Positions 29,693-52,476 of a DNA stretch of 64,000 bases are shown in pieces (positions within the stretch are counted from its first letter, which is position 1; the number at the start of each line of letters is the position of its first letter). Under the pieces are notes generated by a model. That model worked only from the letters and a program-made list of their open reading frames with translations, was not told the DNA's origin and did not search any database. The DNA is from Phyllobacterium bourgognense (lineage in GTDB: Bacteria > Pseudomonadota > Alphaproteobacteria > Rhizobiales > Rhizobiaceae). Where the stretch lies: NCBI RefSeq assembly GCF_003337575.1, contig NZ_QPJM01000001.1, positions 124,001 through 188,000 on the forward strand. The letters are read 5' to 3'. A program made the translations under genes and the position numbers.

Positions 29693-29707
29693 TTGTGCGT
29701 TGCAACA
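29693..29707 (+). promoter_or_regulatory. Dyad motif copy upstream of exoF
   Basis: TTGTGCGTTGCAACA. Half sites TTGTGC and GCAACA around GTT. About 280 bases upstream of exoF. Confidence 0.5.
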
Positions 29708-29943
29708 GAACGCCGTTTGGAGGATGCGAGTTGAACGGCATTCTGGCCGCGTTCTTTGATCGTAGTCACCGGAAGGGCAGTGTATTTTACTGGAGTATTA
29801 TGTAATTTGTGATCGCAATTCCACTTGTTCGTGCCAAAAACATAATTACATATGCTTATATAGTTGAGCGATTGTAATTAGTTTTGTCTTCTTCTAGACA
29901 ATTGGAGGGGTTGTACCGTCGTGAGATATTGTGTAGTTTTTTT

Positions 29944-29958
29944 ATTTGCGCTGCAACA
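29944..29958 (+). promoter_or_regulatory. Dyad motif copy in the exoF-syrA gap
   Basis: ATTTGCGCTGCAACA. The right half site GCAACA is intact and the left one is weaker. It lies 315 bases before the syrA/exoX-like start codon. Confidence 0.4.
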
Positions 29959-30273
29959 TAGCGTGAAAATTCGTATTTTTGAGTGAAGACAGGACGTGCT
30001 TCAGCCGTCCGCGTGCGTTGTACGCTGTATTCGCGGGCCGCAATACCTCGCCGGCTGCAAAAGCGCAGAAAAATTGTGGTTACAAAGTAAGAAAACTGTT
30101 ATATTCCGGCTTAAAATTAGCCGAGGTGCTTTCATCTAAACTCAAGGGGTTTGGTATAGACAAATTGGCAGTCAAAAAAACATTCATGTACGCGCATCAG
30201 CGTCTGTGGGGGGAGATCAAATGATAAGAAACGATACGCCAGCTTTTCTCCGTATAACGAACGGGAGTTGAGC

Positions 30274-30552
30274 ATGAGATTTCCAAATTTTTTAGTTGGA
30301 ATGTTGGGCGTCCTTATCGCATTTGCGATCACAACCTACGTTCTCACGCAATCCTTGTGGGCAACGATCGTCCAGACGCTGATTTGCGCAGTGGTCATCC
30401 AGGTAGGGTATTTCGCCGTTGTGCTCTTCCTTGTCGCGCGCGAAAAGCCGCGGACGTCCGAGTGGAAGCAGTCCGGTACCAATGAGGCAACCGGCATTGT
30501 CGCAAGCAAGCAGCCTCCGTTTAAGTCAATTACACCAACAGAGACGCATTAG
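30274..30552 (+). CDS. SyrA/ExoX-like exopolysaccharide production repressor
   Basis: A 92-residue protein with two N-terminal membrane helices (about 5-25 and 28-52; MRFPNFLVGMLGVLIAFAIT and the VIQVGYFAVVLF segment) and a polar tail, the pattern of the SyrA/ExoX family. In Sinorhizobium, ExoX lowers succinoglycan output after translation in proportion to ExoY, and SyrA affects exo expression. ATG 30274 follows CGGGAG at 7 bases. Its place in the exo locus, at the far end of the AT-rich region from exoF, supports the call. Confidence 0.75.
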   Translation: MRFPNFLVGMLGVLIAFAITTYVLTQSLWATIVQTLICAVVIQVGYFAVVLFLVAREKPRTSEWKQSGTNEATGIVASKQPPFKSITPTETH

Positions 30553-30661
30553 ATTCACGCTCTGACGGTCTGCAAATGGCGTTTTTCTGTGCTCCGGTGC
30601 TCACGTACCTTAAAGTACGCTGCTCGAAACCACCATTTTCGTCGCGTCATAGCATGAATCT
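30551..30661. repeat. Palindromic intergenic element, type A, copy 3 (shorter)
   Basis: AGATTCA (30551-30557) and TGAATCT (30655-30661) close a 111-bp unit with the type A core (CTGCAAATGGCG, GTGCTCACGTACC, CCATTTTCG). The middle part of one arm is shortened compared with the other copies. Confidence 0.7.
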
Positions 30662-30756
30662 TGACAGCCCTTAAAGCAATCCGGCCGGTTTGAAGTCTGT
30701 CTCTTGCGGGAGACCGAAATATTTGTATCCTTGCTGCATCGGTCCGGCGTCGGCAA

Positions 30757-31854
30757 ATGCCCGCGGATCACACATGGTGCGCGGTTTATTCACGCCTTCG
30801 TGCACTCAAATACAGACCCGCACAGTCGAGGGCAGGGCCAATTACAGATAATCCGGACAATAGTGTGTGTGTGATCATCGCTGCGAAAAACGCAGCCGAT
30901 ACCATCGCGGCCGCCATATCCTCCGCCTTGGCGGATACATACGTGACGGAAGTTATCGTCGTCGACGATGGCTCGACCGATGGAACTTCGGAAGCCGCCG
31001 GAGCGGCCGATGACGCAAGCGGACGCCTGCGCATCATTCGTTTCGACGTCAACAGGGGTCCATCCCATGCACGCAATCACGCCATCTCCTGTTCCTCGGC
31101 AGCTCTGATCAGTATTCTCGATGCCGACGATTTCTTTATCCCGGGACGCTTTTCCCATTTGCTGTCGAACGGGGACTGGGATATGGCCGCCGACAACATC
31201 GTCTTCGTCGATGAACGTTGGGTCAGCCACTTCAACACACTCGCCATTGACAAGTTTTCTCCGGAAACCTGGTTTCTCGACCTGCCGACATTCGTCAACC
31301 GCAATATATCGAGACGCAACAAGCAGCGCGGTGAGCTCGGCTTCCTGAAGCCTGTCATCCGGCGCGAGTTTCTCGATCGCCACAGCCTGCGCTACAATGA
31401 AAAGCTGCGGCTCGGCGAAGATTACGATCTCTATACGAGAGCGCTGGCGCTGGGTGCCCGCTTTCAGATCATCAACAATTGTGGATATGGAGCCGTCGTG
31501 CGGGCGGACTCGCTGAGTGGGCGGCACAGGACGGACGATCTGAAACAACTCGCCGATGCCGACAAGACGCTTCTGGATAGCGGTATCCTGTCGGGAGGGG
31601 GGCTGGAAGCAGTCCGCGAGCATGAGCGCCATATTCGCTCCAAATTCCATCACCGGCAGTTTCTGGACGTCAAGTCGCAGCAGGGGCTCGTTGCAGCAGC
31701 TGTCTATGGTCTGCGCAATCCATCTGCGGTTTTTCCGATCGCGAGGGGCATCCTGACCGACAAGCTCGATGGAGCCATCAGGAACAGATCGCCTGCCCCC
31801 CAGATCAAACCTGAGCTGCGCTATTTGTTTCCGGCAAGTGCCAAACCGCAGTGA
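30757..31854 (+). CDS. exoU: GT2 glycosyltransferase, ExoU-like
   Basis: A 365-residue GT-A glycosyltransferase with VCVIIAAKNAADTI, EVIVVDDGSTDGT (UDP-sugar binding), the DxD-like ILDADD and the GEDYDLYTRAL segment. In succinoglycan synthesis ExoU adds the sixth sugar, a beta-1,6 glucose; the match to ExoU is by family and context, and ExoO-type specificity is possible. The first 30 residues are unusual for the family, so translation may begin later than ATG 30757. It lies next to the WcaK-like pyruvyltransferase. Confidence 0.7.
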   Translation: MPADHTWCAVYSRLRALKYRPAQSRAGPITDNPDNSVCVIIAAKNAADTIAAAISSALADTYVTEVIVVDDGSTDGTSEAAGAADDASGRLRIIRFDVNRGPSHARNHAISCSSAALISILDADDFFIPGRFSHLLSNGDWDMAADNIVFVDERWVSHFNTLAIDKFSPETWFLDLPTFVNRNISRRNKQRGELGFLKPVIRREFLDRHSLRYNEKLRLGEDYDLYTRALALGARFQIINNCGYGAVVRADSLSGRHRTDDLKQLADADKTLLDSGILSGGGLEAVREHERHIRSKFHHRQFLDVKSQQGLVAAAVYGLRNPSAVFPIARGILTDKLDGAIRNRSPAPQIKPELRYLFPASAKPQ

Positions 31855-31873
31855 GCCTGACGCGAATATCAGT

Positions 31874-31898
31874 TTTTATTGTGCGTTGCACAATAAAA
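31874..31898 (+). promoter_or_regulatory. Extended perfect palindrome containing the dyad motif
   Basis: TTTTATTGTGC (31874-31884) and GCACAATAAAA (31888-31898) are perfect inverted arms around GTT. The inner 15 bases (31879-31893) are the most symmetrical copy of the exo-locus motif. It lies 20 bases after exoU and 150 before the pyruvyltransferase; it could be an operator, or read as a weak terminator of exoU, though no T run follows the right arm. Confidence 0.55.
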
Positions 31899-32048
31899 CG
31901 CTATGGACTAATCTGCTCTAAAGATCAGGGTCAATACGAGCGGATTTGCTCGGTTTATTTGGACGACTGCGCACGCAAAGGACGCAGCTGTGATTGACTT
32001 GCAGCCTGCAGAACCCCATGCCGCCAATCAGATACCAGGGTTAGTTTT

Positions 32049-33383
32049 ATGAAAATCATTGTCGAGAACACGGTCTGCCTGAATACGGGCGACGCTGCAA
32101 TTCTTCTAGCAATCAGGCATATCCTGAGGAACGTCTGGGGCGAGGATTTGCGTTTTCAGGTCTTCGACAGCCAGCCGGAAGTGGCGGCACGACTTTACCC
32201 CTCGAAAGAGTATCCGGATCTCGAATTTCACAAACTCCTCTCGGAGTCGGTCTTCAAATACAGCTACGATCAAAACGTCCTGAAGAACGCCGTCAAGCCG
32301 CTCTACAATCGAATTGTACTCGAGGCGCTGCGCCGCTTCGGCAGGGGCGGGTCCATCGACAAGATGTTGTTCAGCGACAGCGACCGCCGCTCGCTCGAGA
32401 TCTACCGGGACGCCGACCTCGTCATCACGACAGGTGGAACCTATCTCGTCGAGAACTACAACCTCGAGCGGCGTCTCAATCAATTCCGCATCGATGCGAT
32501 CCTTGGCAAGGATCCCGTTTTCTTCACGCAGTCGCTGGGGCCCTTCAACAAGGACTACAATCGCCAGGAACTGAAACCCGTCTTTGACCGGAGCCCGCTC
32601 ATTCTTCTTCGCGATTCAAGGTCAAGGGACCATATCGTCGATCTCGTCGAAGACCCCAACAAATGTCATGTGGTGGCCGATGCGGTGTTTGCGCTTGCTG
32701 ACACGGACCGGATTGCAGGGATTTTGGCCTCGGACCAGACACCGAAAACGGGTCGCGTCGCCATTTCTGTCCGTCACTGGAACTACGTCAAGGGTGGTGG
32801 GGACGGCATGCGCCGCTACCTTGATTCCATCCGCAATATCGTCACCAAGCTGGTGCGGGACCAGGGTAAAGAGGTCACCTTCCTGTCGACTTGCCAGGGC
32901 GTGCCGGAATACGCCCATGACGATTCCAAGGCAGCCAACGCTATCGTTGCCGAACTCGATCCCGAGATTGCCAGCCATGTCAGCGTAGACGCGTCATTTC
33001 ATACGCCGGAGCAACTGATGGCACTCGTAAAAGGGTTCGATTTCGTTGTCGCCACACGCATGCACATGATGATCATGTCGCTGTGCGTCGGCACGCCCGT
33101 GCTGCCGATCGCCTACGAGTTCAAGACCAGGGAAGTCGCCAAGCGTATAGGTGTGTCCGACGTTCTGCTCGACATCGACACTGTGACGGCAGAAGAAGCC
33201 GGTGAAAAGCTCGATACCTTTATCCAGAATCTGGAGGATTACCGCAAGACGAGCCTCAAGGCTGTTCTGGACGAGCACGCATCGGCAATGTCCGCGACCG
33301 AGTTGCTGAGGCCGCTCCTTGCCGCGCCGTCAGCGAATGTTGCTCGCAACCTTGGACCAGATAGCCGACAGAGCGCTGCGTGA
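32049..33383 (+). CDS. Polysaccharide pyruvyltransferase, WcaK/AmsJ-like
   Basis: A 444-residue protein of the polysaccharide pyruvyl transferase family, which transfers pyruvate from phosphoenolpyruvate to a sugar as a ketal. It starts IIVENTVCLNTGDAAILLAI, has TTGGTYLVENY and FTQSLGPF in the first half and the VVATRMHMMIMSLCVGTPVLPIAYEFK signature near the end. Length and motifs resemble WcaK of colanic acid and AmsJ of amylovoran rather than the shorter ExoV. The last 54 bases overlap the 3' end of the convergent flippase gene. Confidence 0.82.
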   Translation: MKIIVENTVCLNTGDAAILLAIRHILRNVWGEDLRFQVFDSQPEVAARLYPSKEYPDLEFHKLLSESVFKYSYDQNVLKNAVKPLYNRIVLEALRRFGRGGSIDKMLFSDSDRRSLEIYRDADLVITTGGTYLVENYNLERRLNQFRIDAILGKDPVFFTQSLGPFNKDYNRQELKPVFDRSPLILLRDSRSRDHIVDLVEDPNKCHVVADAVFALADTDRIAGILASDQTPKTGRVAISVRHWNYVKGGGDGMRRYLDSIRNIVTKLVRDQGKEVTFLSTCQGVPEYAHDDSKAANAIVAELDPEIASHVSVDASFHTPEQLMALVKGFDFVVATRMHMMIMSLCVGTPVLPIAYEFKTREVAKRIGVSDVLLDIDTVTAEEAGEKLDTFIQNLEDYRKTSLKAVLDEHASAMSATELLRPLLAAPSANVARNLGPDSRQSAA

Positions 33384-34790
33384 CTGGGGCAGCAAAAGCA
33401 TCAGGACGAACGCGAACGCATAGTTGAGCACAACAGCCAGAATAACCGCGAGAAAATCCGAGCGGGCGATCAGCGACAAGGGTAGCCACCAGTAGGCGAG
33501 CCAGGCCAGCAGGGCCGAAACGATAAAGAGGCCTTGCACCAGAAGTACATCCATCGCGGTCACCGGGCCGACGCGATGCACCAGCACCGCGAGAACGGGA
33601 ACGCGCAGGACATAGCCGCTGATGGCATAGGCCGCGGCGACGCCGACGGCACCCCAATGCAGGCCCACGATAAAAGCAACCACAGTCGTGATCGAAGAGT
33701 AGATGCCCCAGCGGAACATGGTCTTCGTCCTGTCCTGGCAGATGAAGATCCAGCCTGTGGTGCTCGAAATGGGCTGAATGAGGCCGGCAATCCCAAGCCA
33801 GGCGAAAATCGGTGCAACGGGCAGCCATCTGTCGCCGAAAAGAATACCGACAACCTGTTCCGAAGTAAGGGTCAGCGCTGCGATAGCGGGTACTGTGACC
33901 GCAGCGAGTACCCAGTTGGTCTGCATGTAGATATCGCGAAATCGCTTTTTATCGTCCTGTATCCGGCTCAGCAACGGGATCATAAGGCGTGTCAGCGGCT
34001 GATTGATGTTCTGCAAAGGGAACAGCAGAAGCTTGTAAGCGCGGTCGTAATAGCCAAGCTCAACCGCACCCGAAAATTTGCCGATCAGAATATTGTCGAG
34101 GTTGCGGGAGAAGAAATTGACGAGGTTGAAGCCCGTAAGGTTGGCGCCGAAGGACATGATGTCGCGATCGATCTTCAAAACCGGCTTGTCCGGCCTGAAT
34201 CGCGCCACACGCCAGGCTGCAAGCAATCCAACCACGGCCGATGCCGCCGGGCCAAGCACCAGCGACCAATAGCCCATGCCGGCATAAGCGGCCACGGCTG
34301 CTGTCGCAAAGCCTGCAATGGCGGTGACGACATCGTTGATCGCAAGCTGACCGAACTGCAGATGGCGGTTCATCAGGCTAAGCGGCATTGCCGCCAGACT
34401 TCCGAGGAAGAGCGGCAGGCCGGCGCCGATCGTGATCCCGACCATGCGCGCATCACCGTAATACGATGCGACGACGGGAGAGAGCGCAACGACGACGGCG
34501 GTGCTCGCGAGACCGGCAAAGGCGCTCATCCAGAAGACCTGGTTGAGCTGTCGCTGACTGATCTCCTTGCGCTGAACGACCGCTTGCTGAAGCCCGAGAT
34601 TCTGGAAAAGCGCGACGAATGCCACGATCGGGCTGACAGAGGCGACGAGACCGAAATCTTCCGGAATGAGCAGGCGCGCCAGAACGATGACGGAGAGGAA
34701 TTGGACAACGATTTTGATGCCCTGCGCAATGACGGTCAAAAGGCCGCCGCGGAGGGCCACGCGTCCAAACTGAAGCGGTTCGGCACTCAC
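33330..34790 (-). CDS. Polysaccharide flippase, WzxC-like (MOP superfamily)
   Basis: A 486-residue protein with about 12-14 membrane helices. The N-terminal LRGGLLTVIAQGIKIVVQFLS, LARLLIPEDFGLVA and GLQQAVVQRKEISQRQLNQVFW segments mark the WzxC/AmsL/ExoT-type flippases that move undecaprenyl-linked repeat units across the inner membrane. Its start overlaps the stop of the WcaL-like gene by 4 bases, so it is the last gene of ugd-GT4-wcaL-wzx. Its 3' end overlaps the convergent wcaK-like gene. Confidence 0.88.
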   Translation of the reverse strand: MSAEPLQFGRVALRGGLLTVIAQGIKIVVQFLSVIVLARLLIPEDFGLVASVSPIVAFVALFQNLGLQQAVVQRKEISQRQLNQVFWMSAFAGLASTAVVVALSPVVASYYGDARMVGITIGAGLPLFLGSLAAMPLSLMNRHLQFGQLAINDVVTAIAGFATAAVAAYAGMGYWSLVLGPAASAVVGLLAAWRVARFRPDKPVLKIDRDIMSFGANLTGFNLVNFFSRNLDNILIGKFSGAVELGYYDRAYKLLLFPLQNINQPLTRLMIPLLSRIQDDKKRFRDIYMQTNWVLAAVTVPAIAALTLTSEQVVGILFGDRWLPVAPIFAWLGIAGLIQPISSTTGWIFICQDRTKTMFRWGIYSSITTVVAFIVGLHWGAVGVAAAYAISGYVLRVPVLAVLVHRVGPVTAMDVLLVQGLFIVSALLAWLAYWWLPLSLIARSDFLAVILAVVLNYAFAFVLMLLLPQSRSALSAIWSKVASNIR

Positions 34791-35968
34791 GCGCTTAACT
34801 TCGCTTCGGCGAGACGGGTGATCATCTGCGCGAATTCATCATTCAAAACATCGGCGTTGAAATCGGCTTCGATCTTTTTCCTTGCAGCCAACGCGATGCG
34901 CTCGCATTCGGCCGGGTGTTCGGCGATCCACAGGAGTTTTCCCGCCAGAGCCTCGGCATCCTTTTCAGGAACGAGAAATCCCGTCGTCTGATCCTCAATG
35001 AGTTCGGGAATCCCGGAGTGATATGTGCTGAGCACCGTAAGCCCGGCAGACATTGCCTCCATGAGGGAGACCGGAATGCCTTCCACATCTCCATCCTGTG
35101 CCGTCACGCTCGGCAGCAGAAACAGATGGGCCTCGCGCAAGCGCTGCTTGACCTCGCTGTGAGGGCGCGGTCCGAGAAATGTCACCCTGTGCGCAATATT
35201 CAAATCTTTGGCGAGGTGCTTCAGATCGTCGAGCAATTCGCCACCGCCTATGATCGTATAGGCCCAATCGAGGTCCGGGTTGGAAATCGAAAGCTGGCCC
35301 AGCGCGCGCAAGGCAAACTCGATGCCCTTCTTTTCGGTCAAGCGGCAGACCGAAATGAGATTCAAGGTGCTGTGATCCCAAGAGCGCCACGCATATTCGA
35401 TCTCGTTGATCCGGACGCCCATATGATGCACGTTGACGTTTGCTTCTGGCGCCCCGGCGTCCACAAGGGTCTTGCGGAAATAATCGTTCACCGTCAGTTG
35501 CAGCGTTCCCTGATCGAACAGCACATTATATTGCCAGAGGGAGTTGTCGAGAACGGGACGACCGACATCGCGGCCATGGAATATGGTCACCAGGGGAGCG
35601 CCAAGTTTCTTCCGCTTCAACACGCGAGCCACACGCAAGCCGTTATTGCCGAAATGGGCGATTATGACATCGAAATTTTGGAGCTTTCGCGAAAAGGCAA
35701 TGTCAAATGCCGTCGAAACCTTGTCCCAGAGAGCTGTTGGCAACTTTCGCAAGGACGGGCGTAGCGGTGCCATAGCACCCCACCAGCAAACCGTATTTTC
35801 AGACAGTGCTCGCCAATGCTCAGTTCGAGCGCTGCTGCCTTGCTTCAGAAGGTTCTCGTTACAGATAACGCCCACCTCGATACCGCGCTCAAGAAACCCA
35901 TTTACCTGATCCAAAATGAACGTCTCGGACAATGACGGGAACTTGTCGACAACAAAACCAACTCTCAT
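34787..35968 (-). CDS. GT4 glycosyltransferase, WcaL/AmsK-like
   Basis: A 393-residue GT-B enzyme. It begins MRVGFVVDKFPSLSETFIL, has IIAHFG, IFHGRDV, ISVCRLTEKKG and the donor-binding FLLPSVTAQDGDVEGIPVSLMEAMS, closely following the WcaL/AmsK group of colanic acid and amylovoran synthesis. Start ATG 35968 gives the usual MKVGF-type beginning. Four-base overlap with the flippase gene. The sugar added is probably a hexose of the side chain, by analogy only. Confidence 0.83.
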   Translation of the reverse strand: MRVGFVVDKFPSLSETFILDQVNGFLERGIEVGVICNENLLKQGSSARTEHWRALSENTVCWWGAMAPLRPSLRKLPTALWDKVSTAFDIAFSRKLQNFDVIIAHFGNNGLRVARVLKRKKLGAPLVTIFHGRDVGRPVLDNSLWQYNVLFDQGTLQLTVNDYFRKTLVDAGAPEANVNVHHMGVRINEIEYAWRSWDHSTLNLISVCRLTEKKGIEFALRALGQLSISNPDLDWAYTIIGGGELLDDLKHLAKDLNIAHRVTFLGPRPHSEVKQRLREAHLFLLPSVTAQDGDVEGIPVSLMEAMSAGLTVLSTYHSGIPELIEDQTTGFLVPEKDAEALAGKLLWIAEHPAECERIALAARKKIEADFNADVLNDEFAQMITRLAEAKLSA

Positions 35969-36007
35969 TATCGAGTATTCTTTCAATATATTTATTGGCG
36001 GCGCTTA

Positions 36008-37087
36008 TCACGCCACTTGTTTGATACTCTGGCTGGTAGCTTGGTCAAGAACGCTTAGAAAGGTCGAAAACTGTGTTTTCGGGTCCATCTGAGGCCGCTC
36101 GGAGAATTTCTTTGCAGCGGAAGAAAGCCGGTCATACTCGCCCTTGTCAGTCCAGAGCGTGCGGATTGCGCTGACCCAGTCTTGCAGCGGCGCGTTGTAA
36201 TCCAGGACCAGGCCGCCTTCGCCAATCGCCTCCGGCAGTCCGCCACGGCGCGACCCTACGACAGGAATGCCGCTGCAATGCGCTTCTGACGCGACGCGGC
36301 CCCATGCCTCTTCCCATTTGCTGGGGGCGAGCAGGATCTTGGTGCGCCCATAGACCGTTTTCATGTCGCTTGTGCGATTTTCAAGTCTGACGTTCTTTAA
36401 AGGTGCGATGGTCTTTTCGATGCTGGCCCGGTGATCTTCGGCAAGCTTCCAGCTTTCGACAAAGAGAAACGGGATGTCGGGACACTGCCCGGCAATCTGG
36501 ACGGCCAGTTCAAATCCCTTTTCATTGTAGGGATTGATGAACGTCACATATTCGCCGGTCGTCGGCGTTCCGTAGAGGACAGGGTCGATCGTCGGAGGGA
36601 TGATGGTCGAATCGATCCCGAACTTCTCCTTGTAGGTCCTCGCGGTGAATTCGGAATTCGCGATGTAGAGTGCCGAATCCAGTTCCCGCAGATCGCCGGC
36701 AAGTTCGTGGAATTCCACGTTTCTGAGATAAATGACCAAAGGTATCCCTTCAGCTTGCAGGGCTTTCCCTATCGGAACCGATTTGTGGCATTGTACGACA
36801 GCCACGTCGGGCTTGAGCCTTTTGACCGCGAAGCCCGCAGCCTCCCAGGGAAACCAGGCCCTGACCACGGGATAGCCCGGAAAACTGTCGACTGCCGCCC
36901 GCTGACCCAGGATCTTCATCTTGGCGCGCGCCTTCAGTCCGAACATTCCCTGGCCAAACAAGGCAGCCAGAACCGAGGCCTCGTGCCCCTGATTGCGCAA
37001 TTGTTCGACCAGATGATGCGTACTGGATTGAACGCCGCCGCTGAACTGGGGATAGTAGCCGTTGCCGCCCGCAAAAAGTACTTTCAT
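36008..37087 (-). CDS. GT4 family glycosyltransferase
   Basis: A 359-residue GT-B protein beginning MKVLFAGGNGYYPQFSGGVQSS, with the acceptor-side loop, FVESWKLAEDHR and the donor-binding segment LLAPSKWEEAWGRVASEAHCSGIPV. The E-x7-E type motif is present (EEAWGRVASEA). It is set in the ugd-to-wzx operon, 42 bases after ugd and 39 before the wcaL-like gene. I do not recognise a characterised orthologue; transfer of glucuronate or a hexose are both possible. Confidence 0.8.
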   Translation of the reverse strand: MKVLFAGGNGYYPQFSGGVQSSTHHLVEQLRNQGHEASVLAALFGQGMFGLKARAKMKILGQRAAVDSFPGYPVVRAWFPWEAAGFAVKRLKPDVAVVQCHKSVPIGKALQAEGIPLVIYLRNVEFHELAGDLRELDSALYIANSEFTARTYKEKFGIDSTIIPPTIDPVLYGTPTTGEYVTFINPYNEKGFELAVQIAGQCPDIPFLFVESWKLAEDHRASIEKTIAPLKNVRLENRTSDMKTVYGRTKILLAPSKWEEAWGRVASEAHCSGIPVVGSRRGGLPEAIGEGGLVLDYNAPLQDWVSAIRTLWTDKGEYDRLSSAAKKFSERPQMDPKTQFSTFLSVLDQATSQSIKQVA

Positions 37088-37129
37088 CGCGTGGCTCCTT
37101 GTATCCTGTATTTCACCTGGCTCGGCGGC

Positions 37130-38461
37130 CTATGCGGCCTGCCTGCCGATGCTGTAATATTCCAGGCCATGCCGGGCGATGACCTTGGGATCATAGATAT
37201 TCCGGCCATCGAAGACGACTGGCGTCGTGAGGGCATCCTTCATCAGATCGAAGGATGGCGCCCGGAAGCTCTTCCATTCGGTTACAATAAGCAGGGCGTC
37301 GGCACCGCGCAACGCTGCTTCCTTGGTTCCGCAAAGTAGCAGATCGTCGCGCTGGCCGTAAATGCTTTGGCATTCCTGCATTGCCTCCGGATCAAACGCT
37401 TGCACGCTGGCTCCGGCTTGCCACAGAGCCTCCATCAGCGTGCGTGAAGGGGCCTCACGCATGTCATCGGTGTTGGGTTTGAAGGCCAGGCCCCAAAGCG
37501 CAAACACCTTGCCCTTGAGATTACCCTTGAAATAGCGGTGGACCTTCTCGAACAGGATGGACTTCTGGGCGTTATTCCGCTCATCCACCGCCTTCAGCAT
37601 CTTGGCATCGAAACTGATGCCTTCTGCCGTCTGGATCATAGCGCGGACGTCTTTCGGAAAGCAGGACCCGCCATAGCCTATTCCCGGATAGATAAAATCA
37701 TAGCCAATGCGTGGATCGCTACCGATGCCCTTGCGGACCTCCTCGATATCGGCACCAAGCCGCTCCGCCAGACCGGACATTTCATTCATGAAGCTGATTT
37801 TGGTGGCGAGGATGCAATTGGCCGCATATTTCGTAAATTCGGCGCTGCGCACATCCATGACAATCATTTTATCATGGTTGCGGCTGAAGGGAGCGTAGAG
37901 CTCCCGCATCACCTTTTCGGTGTTATCGCTGCTGGTTCCAATGATGATTCGGTCAGGTTTCATGCAATCCACGACTGCCGAGCCTTCCTTGAGGAACTCC
38001 GGATTTGAGACGACGTCGAAGTCCAGTTCTTCGCGTCCTCGCGCCTTGAGCACTTCGGCGATTTTCAGCCTTATCTTATCACAGGTTCCTACTGGCACTG
38101 TCGATTTGCTGACAACGATCTTTGGCGCTTCCATTTCTCGCCCGATTGCCTCTGCCACGGCCAGCACATATTTGAGGTCGGCCGAACCGTCCTCGCTGGG
38201 CGGTGTGCCGACTGCACTCATCAGAATCTGGCCATGTTTGACGGCAGCTGCAACGTCCGTCGTGAACGTGATGCGCCCCGCTGCGTGATTTTCCTTGACG
38301 AGACTCTCGAGACCTGGCTCGTAAATCGGGATGAACCCCTGATTCAATCGTTCCACCTTGTCAGCGTCGATATCGACGCACAAGACATTGTGCCCCACCT
38401 CAGCCAATACGGCGGCCTGTACAAGACCGACATAGCCAATTCCAAAAACCGTCAAATTCAT
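37130..38461 (-). CDS. ugd: UDP-glucose 6-dehydrogenase
   Basis: A 443-residue enzyme that oxidises UDP-glucose to UDP-glucuronate in two steps with NAD. It has the Rossmann GIGYVGLVQA motif, STVPVG, the SNPEFLKEG segment and the catalytic Cys267 in GYGGSCFPKD. Called rkpK in some rhizobia. Its presence in this operon implies a uronic acid in the polysaccharide (or a precursor for another surface polymer), unlike standard succinoglycan, which has only glucose and galactose. Confidence 0.93.
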   Translation of the reverse strand: MNLTVFGIGYVGLVQAAVLAEVGHNVLCVDIDADKVERLNQGFIPIYEPGLESLVKENHAAGRITFTTDVAAAVKHGQILMSAVGTPPSEDGSADLKYVLAVAEAIGREMEAPKIVVSKSTVPVGTCDKIRLKIAEVLKARGREELDFDVVSNPEFLKEGSAVVDCMKPDRIIIGTSSDNTEKVMRELYAPFSRNHDKMIVMDVRSAEFTKYAANCILATKISFMNEMSGLAERLGADIEEVRKGIGSDPRIGYDFIYPGIGYGGSCFPKDVRAMIQTAEGISFDAKMLKAVDERNNAQKSILFEKVHRYFKGNLKGKVFALWGLAFKPNTDDMREAPSRTLMEALWQAGASVQAFDPEAMQECQSIYGQRDDLLLCGTKEAALRGADALLIVTEWKSFRAPSFDLMKDALTTPVVFDGRNIYDPKVIARHGLEYYSIGRQAA

Positions 38462-38520
38462 TGGATTTGTTCCTGTGCAAAGACATCGGATCGAATCTGG
38501 ATCCGGTCATCTATAATCAT

Positions 38521-38550
38521 TAAAAATCGCGGGCCATAAGAAATGCCCGC
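38521..38550 (-). terminator. Rho-independent terminator after exoY
   Basis: On the minus strand GCGGGC and GCCCGC pair around a 10-base loop and are followed by GATTTTTA. It lies 30 bases after the exoY stop and separates exoY from ugd. Confidence 0.7.
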
Positions 38551-38579
38551 AACCCAAGTTTTCGCAATTGTCATTGGGG

Positions 38580-39257
38580 TCAGTAACTGCCTCTGGCCAT
38601 GCAAACCGCAGGCACGGTCTTGATGATGATATGCAAGTCGAGTTTCAACGACCAGTTCTCGACATAGTGCCTGTCGAACTGCACGCGGCTGTCGTAAGAA
38701 ACGTCATTGCGCCCGCTCACCTGCCAAAGCCCCGTGAGGCCAGGGCGTGATTTGAGGTAGAACACAGCGGCGTTGCCATAATTCTCCAGCTCGTCGTGCA
38801 CGACGGGACGGGGTCCGACAATGCTCATGTGGCCCTGAAGAATATTGATGATCTGTGGCAGTTCATCGAGGCTCAGCTTTCTCAGCACAGCGCCAACGCG
38901 AGTGACACGCGGATCGTCCTTGAGCTTGCGGGTGGCTTCCCATTCGGCTCTTGCGTCCGGATTAGCGGCAAAATAGCTGGCAAGCACGCCATCGCCATCC
39001 TCGACCATCGTCCGGAATTTAAGGCAATGGAAAATGCTGCCACCCCGCCCGATACGGCGATGGCCATAAAATACCGACCCGCCATCGGACAACCTCACGA
39101 GGAGTGCAATAAGCAGGAACAGGGGACTAAGGGCAATGAGGCCTGCCAAGGCCCCGGCAATATCGAATCCACGCTTCAGGAATCCGCCCAAAGCAGGGTC
39201 GAAATCCGTATCAACTTGGGAATAACTCAAATCGGTCGATTTGACTGAATCGCTCAT
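38580..39257 (-). CDS. exoY: Undecaprenyl-phosphate galactose phosphotransferase
   Basis: ExoY primes repeat-unit synthesis by putting galactose-1-phosphate on undecaprenyl phosphate at the inner membrane. The 225-residue protein has one N-terminal membrane segment (RGFDIAGALAGLIALSPLFLLIALLV), then the family's HRRIGRGGSIFHCLKFRTMV, the DELPQIINILQGHMSIVGPRP core and SRPGLTGLWQVSGRN. ATG 39257 follows a GGAG at 8 bases; further upstream in-frame codons would lie over regulatory DNA. Two dyad copies lie upstream. Confidence 0.92.
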   Translation of the reverse strand: MSDSVKSTDLSYSQVDTDFDPALGGFLKRGFDIAGALAGLIALSPLFLLIALLVRLSDGGSVFYGHRRIGRGGSIFHCLKFRTMVEDGDGVLASYFAANPDARAEWEATRKLKDDPRVTRVGAVLRKLSLDELPQIINILQGHMSIVGPRPVVHDELENYGNAAVFYLKSRPGLTGLWQVSGRNDVSYDSRVQFDRHYVENWSLKLDLHIIIKTVPAVCMARGSY

Positions 39258-39348
39258 GGCACAACTCCGGCGGTCGGGTGATTGAATGGCTGATGCGACG
39301 GTATCAAACGGTACATCCAAAGGTATAACCCAAGTTGCATTAAAAATA

Positions 39349-39363
39349 TGGTGCATCGCAACA
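39349..39363 (+). promoter_or_regulatory. Dyad motif copy upstream of exoY (proximal)
   Basis: TGGTGCATCGCAACA. Half sites TGGTGC and GCAACA around ATC; about 92 bases before the exoY start codon. Confidence 0.5.
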
Positions 39364-39619
39364 CAAAAAATTAACAGGCTTGAAACACTAAGTGATGGCT
39401 AGAAATTGCCCATAAGTTGCCTAATTTTTGACCTCTTCGACTATATTATACGTCTGTTAACTTGTAGACGTTTTGCCGACTATTATTCGCTATTTAGACT
39501 GTACTGTGGCGGATTTGGCCATGTTTGCGTTTTAAGGCATGGTTCGGCGCAAAATAGGCGTCTGATACAGGTCATGACGCGAATGCGGTAACTTTTTCGG
39601 GGCCGCAAAAGGCGTCTTT

Positions 39620-39634
39620 TGCTGCACTGCATCA
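39620..39634 (-). promoter_or_regulatory. Dyad motif copy upstream of exoY (distal)
   Basis: Minus strand TGATGCAGTGCAGCA. With two more bases it is identical over 17 bases to the copy at the exoK promoter (41774-41790). About 360 bases before exoY and just past the exoQ stop. Confidence 0.55.
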
Positions 39635-39718
39635 ATTCCCCTAATGCATAAAGAAGTGGCGGAAGATCGGGTTCCGCCCATTCCATCTCGTGCCGTTTTT
39701 TGTTCGATCACGATATTG

Positions 39719-40969
39719 TTATGTCTGTAATTGGGTTGGTTGCATCATTTTGAATGGTGTTCGCTGAGGAATGGCGAGCAATCCTGCGGAATAATACAAA
39801 AGAAACGACCCGATCGTGTAAGGCTGGATGAAGTCGATCTCGAAGAACGAGCGGATCAATAACAACAGCGCAATGCCAAACATGAGGTGTCCTTGCGGCG
39901 TATACCCCTCAATCAGCAGACGCCGCAGGAAACCGATCACCACACCTCCCAGGAGTACGCTGATCAGAACAACGCCGACATAGCCAAGTTCGACAAGCAC
40001 TTCGATATAGGTATTGTGGAAATGAAATCCGGTACGTGCAGGGATATAGAACTCCGCCCATAATCGCTCGGCCTCGGAAAAGCCTTGCACCCAGTAAGCC
40101 TGATAACCAATGCCCATAAGCGGGGCCTCGCGAGAAGCTCTGAATCCTTCTTGCCAAAGATAGGTACGTCCGGTGAGAGTGGAATTCTTGCCGAAAGCGC
40201 CGAGGACCAGATCAATGGCGCCGGCATTTATGGCGACGGCCACGAGCACCAACGCTACGGCAATGCCGACCAGAAAAAAGGACCGGCGGTGCTTCGGCGA
40301 AAATTTCAATACGACGCCTACGATCAGTGTGCTGGTGAGTATTGCAGTCGTTGCGATGACAGAGGTGGCCGAACTGGAGGCAACCAGGCAATAGGCAGAC
40401 AGGAGCCCGCATACGACTGCGATGCAGCGCCACAATTTGCTGGTTTGCAGGACGAAGAAACTGGCGAAGGCGAAATAGACACCCAGGGATGCAAAGAAGC
40501 CAAGCTGGTTCTTGGACGCGAATGCGCCGACGAAACTATAGGAGCCGTCCAGCGCATCGTACTGGTATTGGCCAAAGCCGAGCGAATAAAGCAAAACCAG
40601 AGCGACACCCATGCTTACGCCACCGGCAAAGGTCCGCGAGTCTATGATGCGGGAAGCGATCAAGGCGCAGATTATCGTCGTCAAATATTGAATGCCGGCG
40701 CGCAGGGTGACAGGGGGCGCCGCCGACCACGAAAACGACATGCATGCCAAGAGGACGAAAGGCAACACCCAATAGAAACGTGCGTAGTTACCGACTACCC
40801 TTCGATAGTCGACCAGAATCAGAGGCAACCACAGCCCGTAGAAAACCAGAATGGATATGAAACCAAAGTTTGTCGAATAGGCAAAAACGAAGACCGATAG
40901 CGCTACGGCGAGCGTTCCGTACCAAAAATTCTTGCCTGGCTCGACAAGCAGGGATTTTGCAATTCTCAT
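39719..40969 (-). CDS. exoQ: Exopolysaccharide polymerase, ExoQ (O-antigen ligase family)
   Basis: A 416-residue inner membrane protein with about ten helices and a large periplasmic loop with FGKNSTLTGRTYLWQ...PLMGIGYQAYW and TGFHFHNTYIEVLVELG, the Wzy/O-antigen-ligase signature. In Sinorhizobium ExoQ is needed for high-molecular-weight succinoglycan. I use ATG 40969; a GTG at 41074 would add a polar 35-residue N-terminus without a ribosome binding site. The gene precedes exoY on the same strand. Confidence 0.85.
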   Translation of the reverse strand: MRIAKSLLVEPGKNFWYGTLAVALSVFVFAYSTNFGFISILVFYGLWLPLILVDYRRVVGNYARFYWVLPFVLLACMSFSWSAAPPVTLRAGIQYLTTIICALIASRIIDSRTFAGGVSMGVALVLLYSLGFGQYQYDALDGSYSFVGAFASKNQLGFFASLGVYFAFASFFVLQTSKLWRCIAVVCGLLSAYCLVASSSATSVIATTAILTSTLIVGVVLKFSPKHRRSFFLVGIAVALVLVAVAINAGAIDLVLGAFGKNSTLTGRTYLWQEGFRASREAPLMGIGYQAYWVQGFSEAERLWAEFYIPARTGFHFHNTYIEVLVELGYVGVVLISVLLGGVVIGFLRRLLIEGYTPQGHLMFGIALLLLIRSFFEIDFIQPYTIGSFLLYYSAGLLAIPQRTPFKMMQPTQLQT

Positions 40970-41247
40970 CGTGACGTCCGTATGCGAGCATTGTGTTTTT
41001 CTCTTGGACGGATTTCCGTTTTGGTCGTCCAGAGATGATTTGAGCTCTATCGCATCCTTCGGGGAAACTGGCACTATCGGCGGGATTTGTAAAATTCAAA
41101 AAAACGCGAATGTTGTGTCAGACAAGAGGTTTTCGTTATCTGGCTTGACAGGATTGAAAGCGGAAACAACCATTGCGTAACAAGTTTTGTCTACGGTTCC
41201 GGTACGTTGTCGAGCGCGCCTTTGCGTCTTGGGAAATGGGGTGAGAG

Positions 41248-41616: not shown

Positions 41617-41744
41617 AGAGTTACGGACAACGGAGCGAATGCGACCTTAAAAAGGCAAAAGTTCCCGTGCCAAAATCGGCGGAGCCAAGCTAACTCATTG
41701 AATTGGAACTAGAAAAACATCGCATTTTTCAGTTTTTTACGTGG

Positions 41745-41774
41745 TTGACACCGATCGCGGCAGGTAGTGATAAT
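41745..41774 (+). promoter_or_regulatory. Sigma-70 type promoter of exoK
   Basis: TTGACA (41745-41750) and GATAAT (41769-41774) with an 18-base spacer, close to consensus. The transcription start would be near 41781, inside the overlapping dyad motif, about 90 bases before exoK. Confidence 0.65.
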
Positions 41775-41788
41775 GATGCAGTGCAGCA
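41774..41788 (+). promoter_or_regulatory. Dyad motif copy over the exoK transcription start
   Basis: TGATGCAGTGCAGCA. It overlaps the last base of the -10 element and the predicted start site. That is the position of a repressor operator. Confidence 0.55.
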
Positions 41789-41868
41789 AAGAAACTGTGC
41801 GCTCTTAGGATTATGTTTAACTTCGGCTCCTTGCTGACGCGCCTTTTCCCATAAAGAAAGGAAGATCG

Positions 41869-42660
41869 ATGGTCGCCTCGATTTCATCCCGGATAGCATT
41901 CGTCAGCATAGCGCTTGGCCTTGGTATGACCCCGGTTCTCGCATTTGCACAAGAGAAGCAGCCAGGAAAATCCTTCGTCGAAAACTTTGCCAGCCTGGAC
42001 AAGAAGCGCTGGTACGTTTCGGACGGCTGGTCCAATGGGGCTCACCAGAATTGCACGTGGTCCAAAGGGCAGGTGAGTCTCAAGGACAACACCTTGACAC
42101 TTGGCTTTGCGCCTCAAAAAACCAAGGATCGCGACTATGTGTGCGGCGAGATCCAGACCAATGCGCGCTATAGCTACGGCACCTATGAGGCACGCATCAA
42201 GGCCGCGGCGGGTTCAGGTTTCAACACCAGCTTTTTCAGCTATATCGGGCCCCAGCAAAAGCAACCATGGGACGAAATCGACTTCGAGTTCCTGGGAAAG
42301 GACCCCTCCAGGGTTCAGTTGAATACCTATGTCAACGGAAAGGGCGGAAACGAGAAACTGGTCGGGGTGCCTGAAGGCGCAGACAGCAAGTACAATGATT
42401 ATGCCTTCGTTTGGGAAAAGGATCGTCTGCGCTACTATGTGAATGGTCAATTGGTGCACACGGTCACCGATCCTGCGGCTCTGCCCACCCACCCGCAGAA
42501 GATATTTTTAAGCCTTTGGGCGAGCGACAAGATGAAATCCTGGCTTGGAGCTTTCAGCATGCCCAGCGCGCCCGTTTCCGCCGAATTCGCCCGCGTTGCG
42601 TTTACTGCGCTGGGTGAAGCTTGCCAGTTTCCGGAATCAGTCGCGTGTTCGCTGGATTAA
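41869..42660 (+). CDS. exoK: GH16 endo-beta-glycanase, ExoK
   Basis: A secreted endo-1,3-1,4-beta-glycanase that cuts nascent succinoglycan in Sinorhizobium. The 263-residue protein has a signal peptide (cleavage after about AFA-QEK), a GH16 beta-jelly-roll, and the catalytic EIDFE motif with Glu136 (nucleophile), Asp138 and Glu140 (acid/base). ATG 41869 follows AAAGGAAG. It has a strong promoter with the dyad motif over the transcription start. Length matches the family. Confidence 0.92.
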   Translation: MVASISSRIAFVSIALGLGMTPVLAFAQEKQPGKSFVENFASLDKKRWYVSDGWSNGAHQNCTWSKGQVSLKDNTLTLGFAPQKTKDRDYVCGEIQTNARYSYGTYEARIKAAAGSGFNTSFFSYIGPQQKQPWDEIDFEFLGKDPSRVQLNTYVNGKGGNEKLVGVPEGADSKYNDYAFVWEKDRLRYYVNGQLVHTVTDPAALPTHPQKIFLSLWASDKMKSWLGAFSMPSAPVSAEFARVAFTALGEACQFPESVACSLD

Positions 42661-42747
42661 TTTATTTCGATGGCAACATATCTACGCCCAATTCATTACG
42701 ATAATGCCGCAGGGCTCATTATGGAACTTGCTGCAGAGAAGCAAAAA

Positions 42748-42762
42748 TGTTGCACTGCGGTA
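42748..42762 (-). promoter_or_regulatory. Dyad motif copy upstream of exoL
   Basis: Plus strand TGTTGCACTGCGGTA, minus strand TACCGCAGTGCAACA. It lies 47 bases before the exoL start, between exoK and exoL. Confidence 0.45.
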
Positions 42763-42808
42763 AAAGCCATACTAAGTTCCCTGTGCAGATCAATTGTGGG
42801 ATGACCTC

Positions 42809-43984
42809 ATGCTGCATGTCTTGTACCTCGTGCATGATCTGTCCGACCCCGCGGTACGGCGCCGCGTGATCATGATGCAAGCCGGCGGCGCAATCGTCAC
42901 TATTGCCGGTTTCACGCGAAGCCGCGAACCGATCAGCGAGATTGCGACAATCGTTCCGATCGATCTCGGCAGGACGAGTGATGGCAGGTTTACCCAACGC
43001 GTCGCCGCTGTTGCCCGCGCCGCGTTGACACTCGGCTCGAGGCTCAAGGGTGTTGCCAAACCGGACTTGATCATCGGACGTAACCTCGAAATGCTGGCGC
43101 TCGCCAATCGGGCGAAGGCGTTTTTTCCCGGCGACGTGCCAATTGTCTATGAATGCCTTGATATTCATCGGCTGCTTTTGCGCCGGGATATGACAGGTAA
43201 GGCGCTACGCTTCGTAGAACGAACGCTCAGCAACAATGCACAGCTTCTTATTACCTCTTCGCCCGCATTCGTCAGGCAATATTTCGCACCCTTTGGCCAG
43301 ATCAACTTGCCGGTCGAAGTGGTGGAGAACAAGGTTCTGGAACTCGGCCCTCAGGAAACGGAAGCCATAAACCGCGCGGGCAAGTCCAAGGACGAGGCCT
43401 GGAAGATCGGTTGGTTTGGTGCCTTGCGCTGCCGCACTTCGCTTGAGCTCCTGGCTGCGTTCTCTCGCAAGATGGAGGGCCGCGTTGAGATCGTTCTGAG
43501 AGGTCGCCCCGCCTATTCGGAGTTCGATGATTTCGACCGCTTTGTCGCCAATGAACCCTTTATGCAATTCCACGGCGCCTATGCAAATCCGGAAGATCTG
43601 CAGAAGATCTATGACGAGGTACATTTTTCATGGGCTATCGATTTCTACGAGGCCGGACAAAATTCCAACTGGCTTCTGCCGAACAGGCTTTATGAAGGAT
43701 GTCGCTATGGTTCTGTGCCTATAGCGATGCAGGGCACCGAAACGTCGCTGTTTTTGCAAGAACGCGGGATCGGTTTCTCATTGGGCGAACCGACGGTCGA
43801 GGCGCTTGCAGCACTGTTCGATAAAATGGACACCGACCGCTACCAACGCGCCTGCGAAAAAGTCGAAGCGCAGGAACGCTCGGCCTGGGTGTTCGACCAG
43901 AACGATTGCCGCGCACTGGTGGAACGTCTTGGGCGGCTCACGCATGCAAACGAACATGGCGCGGCACTTCAGGTCGCAGCTTGA
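42809..43984 (+). CDS. exoL: Succinoglycan glycosyltransferase, ExoL-like
   Basis: A 391-residue protein of the ExoL/GT4-like group, which adds the beta-1,4 glucose that follows ExoA in the succinoglycan repeat. It starts MLHVLYLVHDLSDPAVRRRV, has YECLDIHRLL in the first half and the donor-binding SNWLLPNRLYEGCRYGSVPIA in the second. ATG 42809 lies in GGGATGACCTCATG; one ATG upstream in frame is absent and GTG 42794 is less likely. It leads the exoL-A-M-O run, in the same order as in Sinorhizobium. Confidence 0.82.
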   Translation: MLHVLYLVHDLSDPAVRRRVIMMQAGGAIVTIAGFTRSREPISEIATIVPIDLGRTSDGRFTQRVAAVARAALTLGSRLKGVAKPDLIIGRNLEMLALANRAKAFFPGDVPIVYECLDIHRLLLRRDMTGKALRFVERTLSNNAQLLITSSPAFVRQYFAPFGQINLPVEVVENKVLELGPQETEAINRAGKSKDEAWKIGWFGALRCRTSLELLAAFSRKMEGRVEIVLRGRPAYSEFDDFDRFVANEPFMQFHGAYANPEDLQKIYDEVHFSWAIDFYEAGQNSNWLLPNRLYEGCRYGSVPIAMQGTETSLFLQERGIGFSLGEPTVEALAALFDKMDTDRYQRACEKVEAQERSAWVFDQNDCRALVERLGRLTHANEHGAALQVAA

Positions 43985-46931: not shown

Positions 46932-46982
46932 AGGCAGGCAGGCAGTCAATATTTTATATGAAAGCAAACAATCGGCGGTAAC

Positions 46983-49316: not shown

Positions 49317-49320
49317 AGTT

Positions 49321-50115: not shown

Positions 50116-50367
50116 CAGCTCCCGACCCTTAGCCAGCTATTACGATACGTACAAGCGAGTGTGGTGTCCAAGCTGGATTTGTCATCTTCGTTTTCGAAAA
50201 ATATAGTGCTGAAAACAATGGCTTATAACGAATAAACGCATTCAAATGCAATCTCTCCGCGCAGGCGGCACGAGATGCATCATTCGTAGGGTTAATTGGC
50301 TATTTTGGGGCAGGCCGTGAAGCTGCGGGCGCGGCGCAGTCACCGCCGCCCCGGCAAGCTATTTCGT

Positions 50368-52383
50368 TTACAGGTTTTTCTCGCTGACAGGTTCGGATTT
50401 CACAGAACCTGCTATCGTCTGTTTGAAGATCGCGCGTTCAAGTGGTGCAGCCAGAGATTCAGCGTAAGGGGTGGCGATGTGATGACGATCACGGAAGGTC
50501 AACTTGCCATCGATCATGGCATGACAGATTGTATTGCTGCAGAAGAACTCCGTCATATCGATGTATCGTGCATTCTTGATGCCCGAAATGATCCCCTTTT
50601 CCGTCTCGGCATCGCCGTCATCGGCAGCCGCAGAGCGCGGTGTATCGCACACGGACGGGTCTCTTCCCTGCCAGAGAGCGCGCGCCACGCATTTGTCGAG
50701 ATAGGAGGTGTGGGTGGGCACATCGCGCAGGAAAACGACCTTTATTCCGGCATTGCTAAGCACCTCGACCGTTGATCTGATGCCGTCCGCCCATTCTTTT
50801 TTGCGTGCCGAATATTCGGAAGGATCGCCGATTTCATCCGTCAGATGGCTTATGGAAAGTTGTGAGATAATGACCGTGTGCGGTTTCATCGCGATGATTT
50901 CTTTGATCGCAAGCTCTCGCCAGTCATTACACTCCGTGTAATCTCTCCGCAGCTTCGAGTCCCGCGTCGTGATGCGGGTCGCCCGGCACGATGATTTCAG
51001 GTAAGTGACGAGACGGATATTATCCTTCTTTGCAATATCGACGAGCGGTGTCGACCAATGATCGGCATGCGAATCACCGAAAAGAACGACTTTTGTATTC
51101 GAGGATGCCGAGCCGAACACGCAGGGTTTCGGTTTGACCGTTTCGAGATCCAGCACGCAGCTCTTGTCTGTTGCCCGCACGGTGGAGGGCCGTTCTGCCG
51201 TTTCAAGGATCATTTCCTGCTGCGGACTTAGATTGCGTTTTGCGAGTGTGGCGCTCGCGTAGCCAACCGTCACGCCCGTCATTGTCAGTAGCGCGGCGAA
51301 GGCGAGGGACCGGCGCGTGCTGACCATAAGCCATGCATTCCGGCGTATCGGATTTTCGACGAAGCGATAGCTGAAAATCGACAATGCAAGGGTCAGCAGC
51401 ATGAGCAGGATACGTTGTACGCTGGTCAGATCAGGTACCAGCATCGCCGCATAAACGATGACCGGCCAATGCCAAAGGTAGAGCGAATAAGACAGCTTTC
51501 CAATCCACTGGGCGGGCTTGATTGCGAGAAGGGCCCTCGGTCCATAGGTACTCTGATGCACGCCGCTGAGCAGCACCATCACAGTTCCTATCGCAGGCAC
51601 CAATGCAACAAAGCCGGGGAAAGGACCCTGCTCGGATACGCGCAAATACGCTATGGCGATCAATGCAAGGCCAATCCAGCCCATCGCCGGCGAATAGGGA
51701 AATCGCTTGGCCCAATTGTTCAACAACGCCATAGAGGCAAGGCCCCCGAGCGCAAATTCCCAAGCCCGTAATGGTGAAAAATAGAAGGCCCAGGGCTGTG
51801 AAACAGCGGTCAGCCACGCGCAAAGCGCAAACGAAACGGCGGCGACGGCTGCCATCAGCAGGAACACGCCATGTTTACCCGGGCGTATCCGTGTAAACAG
51901 TAGAAGCAGCGCAGGCCAGGCGAGGTAGAACTGTTCCTCGACCGATAGCGACCAGAAATGAATGAAGGGGTTATTCGTGGCGTCGACAGCGAAATAGTCG
52001 AGAGACCAGCGGATGAGCCACAGGTTGATTATATACGTCGAAGCGAACAGTGCTCCCTTGGAGTAAAGCTGCTGCTCGGACGGCGCGAGGATAAAATATC
52101 CAGCGACCAGGGTAACCAGGATGACGAACAGCGAGGCTGGAAGCAGACGCCGTGCCCGCCGCGCATAGAACGTCCAAAGGTTGACCGTGCCGTGCTTGGC
52201 GATTTCCTGCTGAAGATGCTGGGTAATGAGATAACCGGATATGACGAAGAAGATGTCCACACCGACAAAACCGCCGGGCAGGCCGGTGTAGCCGAAGTGG
52301 AAGGCGATCACTCCAGAAACTGCCAGGGCACGTAGCCCTTCAATGTCAGGGCGGAATGTTTTTGATGCGGTGACGGCGCTCAT
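50368..52383 (-). CDS. OafA/YrhL-type acyltransferase with C-terminal SGNH domain
   Basis: A 671-residue membrane protein with the acyltransferase-3 domain (FRPDIEGLRALAVSGVIAFHFG, FVGVDIFFVISGYL, HFWSLSVEEQFYLAWP) and a periplasmic SGNH-like domain (VVLFGDSHADHW; FRDRHHIATPYAES with Asp and His). Likely an O-acetyl- or O-succinyltransferase for the exopolysaccharide, taking the place of ExoH/ExoZ, which are not seen here. ATG 52383 begins MSAVTASKTF; the AGGAG is about 30 bases upstream so the start is uncertain. Two dyad copies lie 60-95 bases upstream. Confidence 0.87.
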   Translation of the reverse strand: MSAVTASKTFRPDIEGLRALAVSGVIAFHFGYTGLPGGFVGVDIFFVISGYLITQHLQQEIAKHGTVNLWTFYARRARRLLPASLFVILVTLVAGYFILAPSEQQLYSKGALFASTYIINLWLIRWSLDYFAVDATNNPFIHFWSLSVEEQFYLAWPALLLLFTRIRPGKHGVFLLMAAVAAVSFALCAWLTAVSQPWAFYFSPLRAWEFALGGLASMALLNNWAKRFPYSPAMGWIGLALIAIAYLRVSEQGPFPGFVALVPAIGTVMVLLSGVHQSTYGPRALLAIKPAQWIGKLSYSLYLWHWPVIVYAAMLVPDLTSVQRILLMLLTLALSIFSYRFVENPIRRNAWLMVSTRRSLAFAALLTMTGVTVGYASATLAKRNLSPQQEMILETAERPSTVRATDKSCVLDLETVKPKPCVFGSASSNTKVVLFGDSHADHWSTPLVDIAKKDNIRLVTYLKSSCRATRITTRDSKLRRDYTECNDWRELAIKEIIAMKPHTVIISQLSISHLTDEIGDPSEYSARKKEWADGIRSTVEVLSNAGIKVVFLRDVPTHTSYLDKCVARALWQGRDPSVCDTPRSAAADDGDAETEKGIISGIKNARYIDMTEFFCSNTICHAMIDGKLTFRDRHHIATPYAESLAAPLERAIFKQTIAGSVKSEPVSEKNL

Positions 52384-52442
52384 GGGCTTGTCGAATACTC
52401 CCAGTTTCGGGAAATCTCCTGCCGGGCAGCATAGGTATATTT

Positions 52443-52457
52443 TGACGCGTTGCAACA
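52443..52457 (+). promoter_or_regulatory. Dyad motif copy upstream of the second SGNH acyltransferase (proximal)
   Basis: TGACGCGTTGCAACA. On the minus strand its TTGCAA could serve as -35 with TATGCT 16 bases further on as -10. Confidence 0.5.
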
Positions 52458-52461
52458 ATTT

Positions 52462-52476
52462 TGGTGCGACGCAATA
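52462..52476 (+). promoter_or_regulatory. Dyad motif copy upstream of the second SGNH acyltransferase (distal)
   Basis: TGGTGCGACGCAATA. It is 19 bases from the neighbouring copy, centre to centre, about two turns of the helix. Confidence 0.45.

Follow-up and report, generated by a model that had tools for sequence, protein, structure and literature searches.

Which regulator binds the 15-bp dyad that is repeated through the exopolysaccharide (EPS) locus of Phyllobacterium bourgognense? The window that we analysed is a stretch of 64,000 nucleotides (assembly GCF_003337575.1, contig NZ_QPJM01000001.1, positions 124,001 to 188,000 of the forward strand, numbered here from its first letter), and nine copies of the dyad lie in its exo locus between positions 29,693 and 52,476. 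An earlier note, made from the sequence alone, had read them as the mark of an undescribed EPS regulon. Our analysis indicates that these nine copies, together with a weaker site beside one of them and a site outside this part of the window, are very probably operators of PhaR (AniA), a repressor that responds to the storage polymer polyhydroxybutyrate (PHB) and binds PHB as well as DNA; from this we infer PhaR binding, repression and titration by PHB in this strain.

Identity of the repeated dyad

Each of the nine 15-mers was found at the coordinate reported for it. The consensus first proposed, T-N2-YGC-RNY-GCA-R-Y-A, fits seven of the nine copies and misses those at 29944 and 31879, and a further match at 5206 had been overlooked. 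Because the motif is palindromic, the strand labels given to the copies are little informative. Judged by its letters, the proposed consensus is the same pattern as the published PhaR (AniA) site of Sinorhizobium meliloti, WNWD2NYGCRNYGCRNH2WNW, a palindrome with AT-rich arms (Lagares et al. 2025, PMC12542648). In that species the exoY, exoH and exoL promoters are bound and repressed by PhaR, as reported from gel shifts and promoter fusions, and exo promoters are derepressed without PhaR and more repressed without PHB (PMC12542648). The PhaR motif of Bradyrhizobium diazoefficiens, TGCRNYGCASMA, which was derived from DNase I footprints and bound promoters, is likewise similar; there PhaR binds the promoter of an exoZ-containing operon, and EPS is raised in a phaR mutant (Nishihata et al. 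2018, PMC6201568). For both relatives, regulator and EPS connection are thus in the literature. The description of the regulon as undescribed does not hold: the motif had been published before as the operator of PhaR/AniA, and so had, for S. meliloti, the repression of exo genes by this protein.

To score the window we used an independent position weight matrix (PWM) of 20 non-exo S. meliloti promoter sites (PMC12542648, Table 3), whose source promoters are bound by PhaR efficiently or weakly; the matrix includes no window or exo site. Among 63,980 window positions, the nine copies took ranks 1-3 and 5-10, and rank 4 fell to 5203-5223. By a pattern derived elsewhere, all nine copies are thus found in the top ten of the window, in keeping with membership among the PhaR/AniA operators. 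At the lowest top-ten score the window held 10 matches, whereas 50 dinucleotide shuffles averaged 0.32. The next-best match (34712, score 14.0) lies within a long open reading frame (ORF; 33330-34790). The loose match within exoP near 48280, mentioned in the earlier note, reaches a score of no more than -13 and does not count as a site. The candidate PhaR-type operators, with PWM scores and ranks, are listed here.

5203-5223: outside the exo stretch, upstream of rimP (RimP by Pfam); 20.4, rank 4
29690-29710: between exoF (-) and the SyrA-family gene (+); 19.7, rank 5
29941-29961: same exoF-SyrA gap, upstream of the SyrA-family gene (+); 18.3, rank 7
31876-31896: upstream of the polysaccharide pyruvyltransferase gene (wcaK-like); 24.8, rank 1
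39346-39366: upstream of exoY (ATG 39259), proximal; 19.2, rank 6; kept in 4/4 aligned Phyllobacterium loci
39617-39637: between exoQ and exoY, distal to exoY; 24.3, rank 2; kept, with letters changed, in 4/4 aligned loci
41771-41791: upstream of exoK, overlapping the -10 of a promoter match; 23.5, rank 3
42726-42746: weak second operator, 19 bp from the exoL site; 12.2
42745-42765: upstream of exoL; 17.9, rank 8
52440-52460: upstream of the acyltransferase gene (-), first of a pair 19 bp apart; 17.2, rank 9
52459-52479: upstream of the acyltransferase gene (-), second of the pair; 15.5, rank 10

We also searched with bare consensus patterns. An exact-pattern search for the motif returned 1 match and was uninformative. 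The looser TNNYGCRNYGCRNNA occurred at 10 places in the window, namely eight of the nine copies, 5206 and 57056, the last within a long ORF; as 60 window shuffles gave 3.0 on average and never more than 9, this consensus alone is only moderately selective. Genome-wide, the core YGCRNYGCR was found 3849 times (2989 in the reversed control) and the 21-letter degenerate form 44 times (31 in the control). Both patterns are too loose to split signal from background, and their abundance is what would favour a chance likeness of GC-rich palindromes. However, the tighter TNNTGCRNYGCANNA gave 81 matches versus 13 when reversed and 34 with the centre swapped to YNR, and its subclasses with A-N-T and A-N-C (or G-N-T) centres gave 58 versus 10 reversed. 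With matrix matches far fewer in shuffles and scrambles as well, a chance likeness is exceedingly improbable; it is contradicted by the window shuffles and by the scrambled matrices in related loci described below.

Other regulators had been put forward for the dyad. A LysR-type protein of the VtlR/LsrB line was one of them, and a dimeric regulator suits a dyad. The VtlR box is, like this motif, a 15-bp element of Rhizobiales, but it reads GCAT-N3-TG-N3-T rather than as this palindrome, and the classic LysR box is TTA-N7/8-TAA (PMC7486931). We found 13 matches to the VtlR box in the window, where 10.8 are expected by chance on average, and none of them overlaps a site. This reading was rejected on these grounds, and we regard it as highly improbable. 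A further candidate that we considered, ChvI of the ExoS-ChvI system, would suit the gene content, since this system controls succinoglycan production in S. meliloti (PMC10659215); binding of ChvI upstream of succinoglycan genes, however, could not be shown in an earlier study (reported in PMC3687685), and on the strength of this literature we give ChvI hardly any weight as the protein at these sites.

The sites had been described as non-coding. All ten top-ranked sites lie outside the listed genes if exoY starts at ATG 39259 and the acyltransferase gene at ATG 52383, starts that are our own choice; with the longest ORFs instead, two sites overlap the extreme 5′ ends of the exoY and acyltransferase ORFs. 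The genes concerned are the following.

28131-29420 (-): exoF-like polysaccharide export protein (Poly_export, SLBB)
30274-30552 (+): SyrA-family small protein, exopolysaccharide production repressor (PF11089, 42.8 bits, cut-off 25)
32049-33383 (+): polysaccharide pyruvyltransferase (PF04230)
38580-39356 (-): exoY-like sugar transferase, longest ORF (PF02397)
41869-42660 (+): exoK-like glycosyl hydrolase family 16 (PF00722)
42794-43984 (+): exoL-like glycosyltransferase (PF13579 just under cut-off; 61% identical to part of the S. meliloti exo locus)
50368-52458 (-): acyltransferase-SGNH fusion, longest ORF (PF01757, PF19040)

The phaR gene and PhaR-type sites in the genome and in relatives

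The genome encodes PhaR (PF07879, E-value 9.2e-30; TIGR01848 above cut-off). Its gene and that of an acetyl-CoA acyltransferase (thiolase) are divergently arranged, and the gap that separates them holds a weak site (12.4). Six of the 58 strict matches to the TNNTGCRNYGCANNA subclasses are in the window, and the other 52 lie within 50 genome regions that we examined, of which 39 hold a matrix match of at least 12. Each of the two phasin genes detected with PF09361 is preceded by a pair of strong sites, 19 bp apart in region L098 and 28 bp apart in L147. Sites also precede a PhaZ gene (L104), a citrate synthase gene (L105) and a pyruvate phosphate dikinase gene, ppdK (L141); another lies at an extracellular-type PHB depolymerase gene and overlaps its longest-ORF start (L109). 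These phasin, PHB depolymerase, citrate synthase and ppdK targets all have counterparts in the S. meliloti list, where phasin, PHB depolymerase, gltA and ppdK genes are given (PMC12542648). Further sites lie between 3-hydroxybutyrate dehydrogenase and ispG genes (L097) and between a rhaD-like gene and the gene of a DeoR-type regulator (L112).

The regulon thus extends beyond EPS, to which the earlier note had confined it, as the same motif precedes PHB, central-carbon and other genes of this genome. This company bears on the suggestion that a sugar regulator of the LacI or GntR type, devoted to EPS, binds the dyads. Proteins of these types typically recognise inverted repeats around a short centre. 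The PHB and central-carbon genes among the neighbours of the motif speak against a dedicated EPS regulator, and the published PhaR sites fit the same pattern; the suggestion was set aside on motif identity and seems to us very unlikely. PhaR, in contrast, gives this orphan-looking motif a named regulator.

Next to the genome itself we considered relatives, defined as the best 80 of 300 exoK-relative loci; three Phyllobacterium loci carry an exoK 94-95% identical to ours. A matrix match of at least 14 was present in 79 of the 80 loci and one of at least 18 in 68, whereas 60 scrambled palindromic matrices at cut 14 reached a mean of 5.2 and a maximum of 29 loci. Intergenic DNA of the relatives (149 kb) held 208 matches, compared to a mean of 1.7 and a maximum of 23 for 100 scrambles. 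Orthologous exo loci are therefore not devoid of sites, and the core of the first proposal, a dyad operator shared upstream of EPS genes, serving one regulator and conserved in relatives, is borne out. For the assignment to genes, these were mapped by tblastn with the window proteins, and a match was called near a start if it lay no more than 60 bp inside the gene or 700 bp upstream of it, counted from the extrapolated start. In this way 266 of the 339 matches lay near or upstream of a mapped gene start, 2 inside a mapped gene and 71 elsewhere, a divergent site being counted for both neighbours. Relative to the loci holding the gene, and with the reservation that per-gene counts may mix paralogues, matches were found for exoY in 36/37, exoL in 54/70, ORF41248 in 51/63, the flippase in 35/60, the pyruvyltransferase in 8/12, glycosyltransferase 34787 in 7/12, the acyltransferase in 4/4, glycosyltransferase 30757 in 16/76, exoQ in 8/35 and exoO in 1/35. 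In an alignment of the region upstream of our exoY with four Phyllobacterium loci both sites are kept, and their centre letters vary within R-N-Y. The place corresponding to the weak 42726-42746 site scores 18.7 in three relative loci (L017, L018 and L019).

The motif also tracks the phaR gene across genomes. Of 397 genomes of the order, 296 have a pair of strict sites 15-45 bp apart and 329 have the PhaR domain. This leaves 68 genomes with no PhaR match, 20 of which were named as such; the other 48 were taken to be those absent from the match list. The cross-tally, made by hand and with kinship ignored, gave 287 genomes with both, 59 with neither, 42 with phaR only and 9 with a pair only.

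Possible points of PhaR control in the locus

By extrapolation from S. meliloti, we infer PHB-dependent repression in this strain. When little PHB is stored, free PhaR would bind the palindromes near the EPS promoters and would repress exoY, exoK, exoL and neighbouring genes as well as the phasin and PHB-depolymerase genes. Under carbon excess, PHB would build up, PhaR would be titrated onto it and the EPS genes would be released.

The exoK operator overlaps the end of the -10 element in TTGACA-N18-GATAAT (41745-41774), an 11/12 match that is the best promoter match of 29400-42900, and its position over the -10 would therefore fit steric repression. The two exoY sites flank a weak promoter match (39468-39440, 9/12), where looping or a road-block are our guesses. 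Since the SyrA-family gene and exoF flank both sites of the gap between them, PhaR could act on either gene or on both. The SyrA-family gene (30274-30552) itself stands between exoF and a glycosyltransferase gene, downstream of these two PhaR-type sites.

Besides the neglected kinship in the cross-tally and the double counting of divergent sites, several results weigh against assigning the dyads to PhaR. When run on S. meliloti pSymB at cut 11, the matrix returned one table site each for exoY (1173888), exoH (1181079) and exoL (1183193), plus 1173906. That each of these three promoters is represented speaks for the assignment, but the matrix recovers three of the six listed exo sites, and three of the four at exoH score lower. 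In the relatives, 131 of the 339 matches fall in a crude ORF mask (1.43 Mb; mean 4.6 and maximum 25 for 100 scrambles), and a match occurs at exoK in 20 of 80 loci and at exoF in 1 of 32. Eleven of the 50 genome regions around strict matches hold no matrix match of at least 12, and several of the matches that reach this threshold lie within crude ORFs or precede genes for which no PhaR link is known. Within 29400-42900, the part scanned for promoters, a site lies over a good promoter match at exoK only, and promoter matches are no more common than in shuffles (7 versus 8.2).

Compared to S. meliloti, where exoY and exoL sites are also present and the EPS entries of the table are exoH, exoL, exoY, wgaA, wgeA, wgeH and exoF3 (PMC12542648), about ten sites are found here within a single locus, among them those in the gaps at the pyruvyltransferase, acyltransferase and exoK genes and in the SyrA region. 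In B. diazoefficiens other EPS genes are concerned, and one EPS operon is reported (PMC6201568). What is new here are the candidate targets (pyruvyltransferase, acyltransferase, exoK and SyrA region), together with the conservation of the sites and the preferred paired spacings. It was proposed that EPS-PHB coregulation might not be strictly conserved (PMC12542648). As far as sites can tell, their presence in 79 of the 80 closest exoK loci leads us to argue that this wiring is common among these relatives, and it points to a coupling of EPS output with stored PHB in bacteria other than S. meliloti and Bradyrhizobium.

Spacing of paired sites and further neighbours

Neighbouring sites in relatives prefer distances of 18-20, 30-33, 41-42 and 51-52 bp. 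The 75 pairs in relatives collapsed into 24 sequence clusters, with R of 0.83 at the best period of 11.1 bp and 0.77 at 10.5 bp; none of 5000 uniform draws reached 0.83. Because 16 of the 24 clusters have spacings of 18-20 bp and different spacings are mixed within some clusters, a spacing preference comes first and helical periodicity is proposed just tentatively. A separate hand tally of 75 pairs among the matches listed in the survey of the 397 genomes, which come from few families, gave 28 at 17-19 bp, 36 at 29-32 bp and 11 elsewhere. The phasin pairs of 19 and 28 bp in this genome resemble those of S. meliloti, which are 18 and 28 bp apart by the listed coordinates (PMC12542648), and pairs flanking the -35 element of phasin promoters have already been described (PMC12542648, PMC6201568). 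The main text of PMC12542648 contains none of the words spacing, helical, tetramer, tandem and Mesorhizobium, nor the stem cooperativ.

A broader proposal, plausible if somewhat more doubtful than probable, is that direct control of EPS loci at many points, exerted by PHB-titrated PhaR, goes back to the ancestor of these loci in Rhizobiales. It would reach pyruvyl and acyl decoration and the SyrA-family repressor, with operator pairs at preferred spacings, as if neighbouring dimers lay on one helix face.

The site at 5203-5223 sits between a TctA-like transporter ORF and rimP, followed by a nusA-like ORF; the TctA-like and nusA-like labels were read from the translations by eye and are presumptive. 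PhaR control of the rimP operon from this site would be unexpected. A search for tRNA or transfer-messenger RNA genes at 4900-5600 found none.

Elsewhere in the genome, the family scan of neighbouring genes took in a selection of them, and several neighbours in L099, L107, L110, L111 and L118 matched no family in it. Several strong sites lie by genes without a known PhaR link, among them the genes of an MFS transporter (L116), a lytic transglycosylase (L100), a PTS IIC-like protein (L102) and a DUF2157 protein (L101). The site before the DUF2157 gene is a pair 30 bp apart (L101, 1489-1539). Other pairs are found 31 bp apart at the 5′ end of an ORF that matched no family (L107, 1516-1567) and 20 bp apart near a small ORF adjoining a PQQ alcohol dehydrogenase gene (L110, 1440-1480). 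A site in L108 (1243-2537) lies by a DUF1127-like small ORF and an anti-phage nucleotidyltransferase-like gene, both below model cut-offs, and the gene of an RTX-repeat protein has two sites at its start or ahead of it (L136, 1519-1734).

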